Part shown: positions 29,522-30,750 of the stretch, one piece after another
Numbering within the stretch: the stretch's first letter is position 1
Layout of the letters: each line of letters begins with the position of its first letter
Source of the DNA: Mrakia gelida
Taxonomy: Eukaryota > Basidiomycota > Tremellomycetes > Cystofilobasidiales > Mrakiaceae
Reading direction: 5' to 3'
Assembly (NCBI GenBank): GCA_024345305.1
Contig: BRON01000009.1
Span: forward strand, 868,001-932,000
DNA: 64,000 nt
The notes under the pieces: model-generated
Told to the model about the DNA's origin: nothing
The model's input: the letters and a program-made list of their open reading frames with translations, nothing else
Databases searched by the model: none
Translations under genes and position numbers: made by a program

Positions 29522-30750
29522 TTAGAGCTTGGCCTTCGATCCCTTGAGAACACCGTCGAGCTTGGTCTGGAGGACGGGAGACAGAAAAGGTGTCAGTGAC
29601 GAGCTTCGAAGGGACAGAGGGGGTCGAGAAAGAGAGGTACTCACGGCTGGAAAAGGGAGCAGAGGCGAGCGATGGAAGAGAAAGCACGTCGTCAGTCCGC
29701 GAGTTCACGACAACGCAGAACGAGCGAGGCGAGGACTGACCCAGCATGACGTTTCCCTTGACCTTCAGCTTGCCCTACATAAGATAAAAAGGAAGAGAAG
29801 AAGGTCAGAACCCGTCGACGAAGCGAGACGTCAAATCGAACGCGACTGACCTGCATGAACATCTGTGAGCGAGCAACGACGAAGGAAGAAGATGAAGATG
29901 TCAGAGGAAGGCGTGGAGTTATGCAACTCAATGACGACCGACCTTCTGAGAGCTTAGAAGGAGGAACGAGAAGACGAGCGAGGAGGGTCAGCGATGAACG
30001 AGCGACGACGACGGGTCGACGACGCGTTCGAGCCAGGTCGAGACGACTCACTTGAGGCTTCCGTCAGCCTGGAAGAACCAAAGGAGCACAAGAGGTCAGA
30101 ACGTGATATCTCGTTTCGTGCTAGGAGATCGAGCGAAGATCACTCACAAGTCCAACGAAAGTCGAGTCGTCCAAGTTGATCGTAACGTCTTCGTTTCCCA
30201 ACCACCAACCCAAGGTCAGCGACTCAACTTTCACCCCTCAACCCATCTTACCCCTCCATCCCTTCCTTCCCCTCTCCATCTGAAACCCAACCCAATCAAA
30301 CGAACGACTCACCAGCCTTCCCCTTCGCGCCCTTAACGACCTCTCCATCCTTCTTCAAGTCAATCGTCCACGAAGCCTCCTTTCCCTCCTTGTTCTTGAC
30401 GTTGAGCAAGAAGATTCCGTTGGTCTTCTTGATGGTCGCCTTCTTCTCGTCAGCGGACATCTTGCTGAACGAGTCGGCAAGGGTCTGTTTGGAACGAAGC
30501 AGGAGGGAGGGGAGGGGAACGACGTCAGCGAGCGAGCTCGGGAAGGAGGTAGAGGACGAGAACGAACAGAGAGGATAGCCGAAGCGTCGAAGCCGTCTTC
30601 CTGTGGTCGTCAAGCCAAGAGGATCGGATCAGCTTATCAATAACGAGGAAACGGAACAGAAGGAAGGAAGGCAGGAGGGTATCTGAGCTCGGCTCCCCTG
30701 CCCTCCCTCCCGTTCGTCCCTCCAGGGACTGAACGAACCTTGATAGACAT
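29522..30750 (-). CDS. stand-alone sterol carrier protein 2 (SCP2) domain, peroxisomal
   Basis: Small lipid-transfer protein, 125 residues from ten exons: 30750-30739, 30600-30568, 30484-30313, 30188-30148, 30068-30052, 29952-29943, 29862-29851, 29774-29741, 29646-29645 and 29566-29522. The joined length is 378 nt, in frame to TAA. Family features in order: EDGFDASAIL; TLADSFSKM; KKTNGIFLLNVKN; ASWTIDLKK; KADVTINLDDSTFVGLADGS; LNSQKMFMQGKLKVKGNVML; ATKLDGVLKGSK. It ends in AKL, a recognised PTS1 variant, so peroxisomal. Exons of 10, 12 and 2 nt are needed to reproduce NSQKMFMQG and MLATKLDG. An in-frame upstream alternative exists: ATG at 31016, exon 31016-30987 spliced to 30822, extending exon 1 with no stop and adding 34 residues. 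I prefer 30750 because family members begin near MSIK. Confidence 0.93.
29645..29646 (-). other. predicted 2-nt microexon (CC) in the SCP2 gene
   Basis: On the minus strand the context is CTTTTCCAG|CC|GTGAGTACC. The flanking introns (29740-29647 and 29644-29567) each carry a CTGAC branch-like site and AG acceptor. Joining ATGCTGG + CC + ACCAAG gives Met-Leu-Ala-Thr-Lys, the family-conserved sequence; leaving CC out shifts the frame and loses the last 14 codons. Confidence 0.8.

Follow-up and report, generated by a model that had tools for sequence, protein, structure and literature searches.

The window analysed here, a 64,000-nt stretch of a Mrakia gelida contig (BRON01000009.1), carries on its minus strand an SCP2-type sterol-carrier gene. 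Read from an MSIK start, this gene has ten coding segments of 12, 33, 172, 41, 17, 10, 12, 34, 2 and 45 nt (Table 1), which together give a product of 125 residues ending in MLATKLDGVLKGSKAKL. The protein scored 88.7 bits against Pfam PF02036 (cut-off 21.3), placing it in the SCP2 family. At the sequence level it ends in AKL, a C-terminal peroxisomal targeting tripeptide that likely sends it to peroxisomes. A protein search of the M. gelida genome found the locus, which was the sole place found for the protein; a PF02036 profile search of the same genome yielded no match because the exons are matched one by one. No match to RNA families was found in the window.

Two further features of the gene structure deserve mention. 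The 10-nt exon at 29952-29943, absent from the preliminary description of this sequence, has neighbors of 12 nt and 17 nt. At 31016-30987 and 30822-30751 on the minus strand, translation from an ATG further upstream would extend the protein in frame at its N-terminus; this extension, MAGPTQPVPE-TFNGPNQPLPASKELSS..., matches the start of a Mrakia frigida protein model (P0001). The gene may start at the ATG at 30750 or at that at 31016, as the acceptor at 30823 scores poorly (1st percentile of the genome-model set).

Table 1. Predicted segments of the SCP2-type gene (window positions) and the paired 2-nt candidate exons of an MscS-type channel gene (locus positions)
Feature	Position	Strand	Remark
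MSIK start exon	30739..30750	-	12 nt from ATG; may extend to 30822 if the start is the ATG at 31016
Exon, 33 nt	30568..30600	-	Missing in first gene-model parse, present after re-estimation
Exon, 172 nt	30313..30484	-	SCP2 domain core
Exon, 41 nt	30148..30188	-	
Exon, 17 nt	30052..30068	-	
Exon CTCTCAGAAG	29943..29952	-	10 nt; frame depends on it
Exon MFMQ	29851..29862	-	12 nt
Exon GKLKVKGNVML + G	29741..29774	-	34 nt
Intron A, upstream of CC	29647..29740	-	94 nt; GTCAGT...CTGAC...TTTTCCAG; phase 1
Predicted 2-nt exon CC	29645..29646	-	Completes Ala codon G/CC
Intron B, downstream of CC	29567..29644	-	78 nt; GTGAGT...CTGAC...CTCCAG; phase 0
Last coding exon TKLDGVLKGSKAKL-stop	29522..29566	-	AKL peroxisomal-type tail
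MscS-type channel, candidate 2-nt exons	L043 1442-1444, 1541-1543	reverse complement of locus	0-based starts

On the minus strand of the window, positions 29646-29645 read CC, flanked by CTTTTCCAG upstream and GTGAGTACC downstream (in context, ...CTCCCTTTTCCAG-CC-GTGAGTACC...). On either side of these two bases lies a canonical GT-AG intron with branch signals. The CTGAC-type branch context described earlier is present in both introns, each of which has a single CTGAC, 45 nt before the intron end in A and 26 nt before it in B (counted from the A of the motif). When CC is included, the gene reads to MLATKLDGVLKGSKAKL-stop. Skipping CC shifts the frame and costs the protein its AKL ending; retaining intron B keeps the frame open, with no in-frame stop, and adds 26 residues.

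We enumerated every join that one or two introns of 45-260 nt could make at this place, allowing GT and GC as donors and AG as acceptor and keeping the ends of the flanking exons fixed (GKLKVKGNVML upstream and the stop downstream). This resulted in 373 joins, among which 114 were in frame and ended in AKL, 6 had the right length and 1 had the right residues. The sole join giving MLATKLDG is the one that includes CC, and it also had the top splice score (18.8; the next join scored 12.8), in agreement with the earlier proposal that a 2-nt exon at 29645-29646 is required to decode the SCP2 gene. That proposal had added that only CC keeps the frame and yields MLATKLDG; the residues are indeed unique to the CC join, but retention of intron B, which it did not name, is in frame as well. 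AGNNGT occurs exactly once in the 174-nt span between the flanking exons. In 20,000 dinucleotide-preserving shuffles of this span, YAG-CN-GTRAGT with at least 45 nt on each side arose in 2, and bare AGCNGT in 1,031. Because CC has an AG acceptor on one side and a GTGAGT donor on the other, and because this join alone gives the MLATKLDG shared by homologs, we regard 29646-29645 as very probably a complete two-base exon of the SCP2-type gene, and we infer its inclusion in the mRNA from the sequence. A tandem duplication as the source of the intron pair was not accepted: introns A and B share a local similarity of score 24, but 14 of 500 shuffles scored as high and the similar stretch falls within pyrimidine tracts, so that it is no evidence for such an event.

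Next, we compared the join with homologs, counting the best 120 of 346 proteins from the protein search. The preliminary description had named the Leu-Ala-Thr-Lys block of SCP2 orthologs as a check on the exon; in the form [LMF]A[TM]KL, the block is unbroken in 119 of these 120 proteins, and AKL is present in 99 of the 120. PDB chains of the S. cerevisiae type, the rabbit type and human aligned through the join. The sole exception among the 120 is P0001 of M. frigida (Cystofilobasidiales, Tremellomycetes; NCBI), which is also the best named match among those listed, with 97% identity over 89% of the query. This model is annotated as ending ...VMLAVSACSPHLNS (also given as ...VKGNVMLAVSACSPHLNS). 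After the Ala, in what fits a reading on from GCC, it has Val-Ser (as GTG-AGT would give) and then stops, so that TKLDGVLKGSKAKL and with it the AKL tail are missing. Exons this short had been expected to escape gene predictors, and in this one species automated annotation has likely missed the exon. Because the model reads Val-Ser and then stop after the Ala, the donor following the Ala codon is likely conserved in M. frigida; the readings of M. frigida, and of Phaffia below, come from protein models alone, and either species may lack one of the two introns.

The same comparisons bear on other ways of reading the locus. If intron B were not removed, or not always, an 80-nt penultimate segment would be exonic, placing 26 residues (AVSTSLSRPP...PVLQ) before TKLDG, and that isoform would have no 2-nt exon. 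Intron B is compatible with this in being 78 nt long, a multiple of three, and free of in-frame stops, and its retention is the fourth best of the 114 paths (8.8 against 18.8). However, the insert would interrupt a join that all but one of the 120 listed homologs keep unbroken, and it lowers the Pfam score from 88.7 to 80.8 bits (81.0 with both introns retained). The M. frigida counterpart of the retained reading stops after AVSACSPHLNS, so the tail would go, and the splice signals of intron B are ordinary for the genome (see below). We therefore consider retention improbable.

Very short exons are usually skipped, and the outer sites of a single intron spanning 29740-29567 are both canonical. 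Removal of such an intron would leave CC out and produce a frameshifted protein, or would mark the locus as a decaying copy. This outcome is very unlikely in our view, given that it costs the tail and reduces the Pfam score to 79.1 bits, and that the gene is otherwise intact, with no second locus for the protein found in the genome. Equally hard to credit is the idea that the AG/GT pair is a recursive-splicing (ratchet) point without exon content. Acceptor and donor are nearly juxtaposed, as at ratchet points, but in a true ratchet point AG abuts GT with nothing between, whereas here two bases separate them and are needed for the Ala codon and the frame; the recursive alternative had been judged the poorer fit from the outset.

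To place these introns in their genomic setting, we used a gene model re-estimated without window positions 28501-32300, which predicted 680 introns in 260.2 kb; a first version had used intron seeds from the whole window, and the figures quoted here are from the re-estimated one. Against the genome-model sets, the donor of intron A fell at the 45th percentile and its acceptor plus branch site at the 61st, and the corresponding values for intron B were the 45th and 72nd, so both introns look ordinary for the genome. The best parse of the re-estimated model used the 2-nt exon, and forbidding exons shorter than 3 nt cost 11.6 log units. Of the 740 internal exons that the model called on the real strands, one measured 1 nt and three measured 2 nt; on the reversed sequence it called 25, one of which measured 2 nt. 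As a control, we planted copies of the SCP2 splice stretch at 300 sites chosen at random, and the model used 59 of them as a 2-nt exon. Usage by the gene model was accordingly rejected as proof of an exon, and its score by itself is weak evidence for one of 2 nt. Since the best parse also fuses the SCP2 gene with upstream sequence, the case for CC rests on homology, not on the model.

As for how such an exon might be spliced, the preliminary description had stressed the challenge to exon definition. That argument is weaker in this case, since the two introns are short and neither lacks any splice signal. Introns A and B would each likely be recognized by intron definition, through their own donor, CTGAC branch site and acceptor. 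Acceptor A and donor B are two bases apart, which would be too close for their factors to fit simultaneously, and two spliceosomes would thus act one after the other. Intron A would likely leave first because its acceptor is transcribed first. Its removal would weld CC to the 34-nt exon, forming a 36-nt exon and putting donor B behind an exon of normal length; intron B would be removed next. The outcome would be residue Ala111 in the SCP2 fold and, after two splice steps, the AKL tail, which is likely to direct the protein to peroxisomes. Inclusion of CC is expected to be constitutive, and the stepwise order of removal may resemble recursive splicing.

The same arrangement probably recurs in other genes. 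We searched the 34.86-Mb genome with a strict 2-nt pattern, CTGAC-N12-42-CAG-NN-GTGAGT, and found 22 occurrences, compared with 7 for the reversed control pattern; 9 of the 22 were used as 2-nt exons by the gene model. The equivalent pattern with a 1-nt gap occurred 23 times genome-wide versus 4 for its control, and 6 of the 7 matches that we read were used as 1-nt exons. In each of the 15 candidate spans a single AG-N(L)-GT leaves enough space for two introns, and for 13 of the 15 candidate mini-exons there is no single intron of equal length within 9 nt of the exon ends. The SCP2 exon (L035) is among those without a single-intron alternative, and both the frame and the conserved motif need it. 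The two exceptions are L046, where an AT-AC pair occurs by chance, and RPB12, where a GC-AG intron is available.

With SCP2 included, seven genes hold five 2-nt and three 1-nt candidate exons, and on homology at the joints six conserved genes besides SCP2 likely need exons of 1 or 2 nt. The candidate 2-nt exon of RPB12 gives RTKR[M]VQFEAR, gap-free against S. pombe Rpb12 and the other two chains shown, and that of CWC2 gives NIWYNK[W], gap-free against two chains shown. An EF-hand MscS-type channel gene is predicted to need a pair of successive 2-nt exons, AT and CT, separated by an intron of 97 nt, and its joint is gap-free against plant MSL10 and eight further homologs; no Mrakia or Phaffia protein was among the matches listed in its protein search. 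One-nt exons are predicted in genes for calcineurin A (SAPNY[L]DVY) and a SIW14-like phosphatase (KTV[L]TLI), both with joints gap-free against solved homologs, and for a cyclopropane-fatty-acid-synthase homolog (W[I]FPGG), which is gap-free at the joint and has gaps a few residues upstream. Among the remaining candidates, L023 matched no Pfam family, and the match of L032 was marginal. For two MFS candidates, L026 and L031, the PDB alignments were weak (36.6 and 28.6 bits) and did not decide the joint. We take L026 to be JEN1-like, L047 UNC93-like and L046 an EGF-type ABC transporter.

RPB12 is the case with a competing intron. The GC-AG single intron is of equal length and is an alternative to the 2-nt exon, giving Ser in place of Met. 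The M. frigida RPB12 model reads KRSVQFEAR, the same as the product of this workaround, while RT.RM is found in 116 of the 120 listed homologs; besides M. frigida, the proteins that depart from it are one model whose C-terminus is altered, one that is truncated and one reading RTRNM. The Phaffia model ends in KRMVTR, which could result if the reading ran on beyond the TG exon and into the donor that follows; alternatively, Phaffia could be without the first of the two introns.

We then estimated how common such exons might be. If donor and acceptor types combine freely, the strict pattern should capture about 0.155 of them (286/809 donors, 354/809 acceptors). Scaling up from the 9 and 6 model-used cases gives roughly 58 exons of 2 nt and no fewer than 39 of 1 nt; because of the planting control, these figures indicate no more than an order of magnitude. 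If about 85,000 internal exons were placed at random and their mean length is assumed to be 150 nt, about 570 would be expected per exact small size; against this expectation exons of 1-2 nt look scarcer than random, yet not forbidden. Counts of the pattern and its control by gap were 49/8 (0 nt), 23/4 (1 nt), 22/7 (2 nt), 29/8 (3 nt), 22/11 (5 nt) and 73/8 (11 nt). In these raw counts gaps of up to 5 nt are rarer than 11 nt, with no further cliff down to 1, and the small-gap counts include ordinary exons that end by chance in CAGN or CAGNN. We think it fairly probable that this lineage has no lower limit on exon size, with dozens of 1-2-nt exons, some in essential genes (RPB12, CWC2, calcineurin) and sometimes two of 2 nt in a row, spliced by constitutive, sequential, intron-defined removal and forming the natural tail of a very dense intron gain.

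Exons of this kind have precedents. In Arabidopsis APC11, a 1-nt exon is reported as shown in RNA and proven in vivo (Guo and Liu 2015, PMC4674806), and one in plant VPS55 is reported as shown in RNA (PMC8831610). These share with SCP2 a tiny, unannotated exon that is needed for the frame and lies between two canonical introns; they differ in being 1-nt exons of plants seen in RNA, whereas the SCP2 exon is a 2-nt exon of a fungus predicted from its sequence. Nelson and Syed (2026, PMC12940212) present a 1-nt exon in Fusarium CYP621A, supported by SRA reads, as the first of a fungal gene. Like CC in SCP2, it completes one codon of a conserved motif in a fungal gene whose public models are wrong. 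That case concerns one family in an ascomycete, with a 1-nt exon backed by reads, whereas here 1- and 2-nt exons are predicted in several unrelated housekeeping genes of one basidiomycete. Exons of 2-5 bp, the same size class as CC, have been reported in other kingdoms, namely in Arabidopsis, Drosophila and humans (cited in PMC12940212). The microexon of Trichoderma Xlr2 (PMC11121469) is likewise fungal and decides which protein is made, as CC would here; its inclusion is regulated, in contrast to the constitutive inclusion expected for SCP2.

In a limited literature search by titles and the starts of abstracts, we found no report of 2-nt exons in fungi, including Rhodotorula, Tremellomycetes and basidiomycetes. 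The SCP2 exon adds to the type of 1-nt exon already known from plants and Fusarium; the comparison suggests that the new part is the recurrence of 1-2-nt exons in one fungal genome, together with two 2-nt exons in a row. Among the fungi compared in a study of Phaffia rhodozyma, the Cystofilobasidiales had the most introns per gene (PMC5103461), and its table gives 8.2 introns per gene and a mean exon of 177 for Mrakia blollopis.

If the predicted exons are true, splicing in these genes works with almost no exon. One or two nucleotides are not recognizable as an exon, as they leave no room for an exonic enhancer and the factors on the two splice sites would collide. A yeast with many such exons would be a simple organism in which to measure the order of intron removal, the limits set by the U1 and U2AF footprints and the cost of a tiny exon. 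It would also follow that gene models in Cystofilobasidiales probably err where conserved proteins end: in M. frigida, the tail is missing from the SCP2 model, and the RPB12 model shows Ser at a place where 116 of the 120 listed homologs fit RT.RM.

Finally, many of the 49 zero-gap matches consist of CTGACGAGCATCTCTCTGCAGGTGAGT and close variants (for example, G000 C7:996955-996981 and C24:45325-45351), sequences that likely belong to a repeat family. One other zero-gap match, at G000:C10:1057902-1057956, shows CAG abutting GTGAGT next to an uninterrupted run of pyrimidines, and is a possible zero-nt (recursive) splice point.
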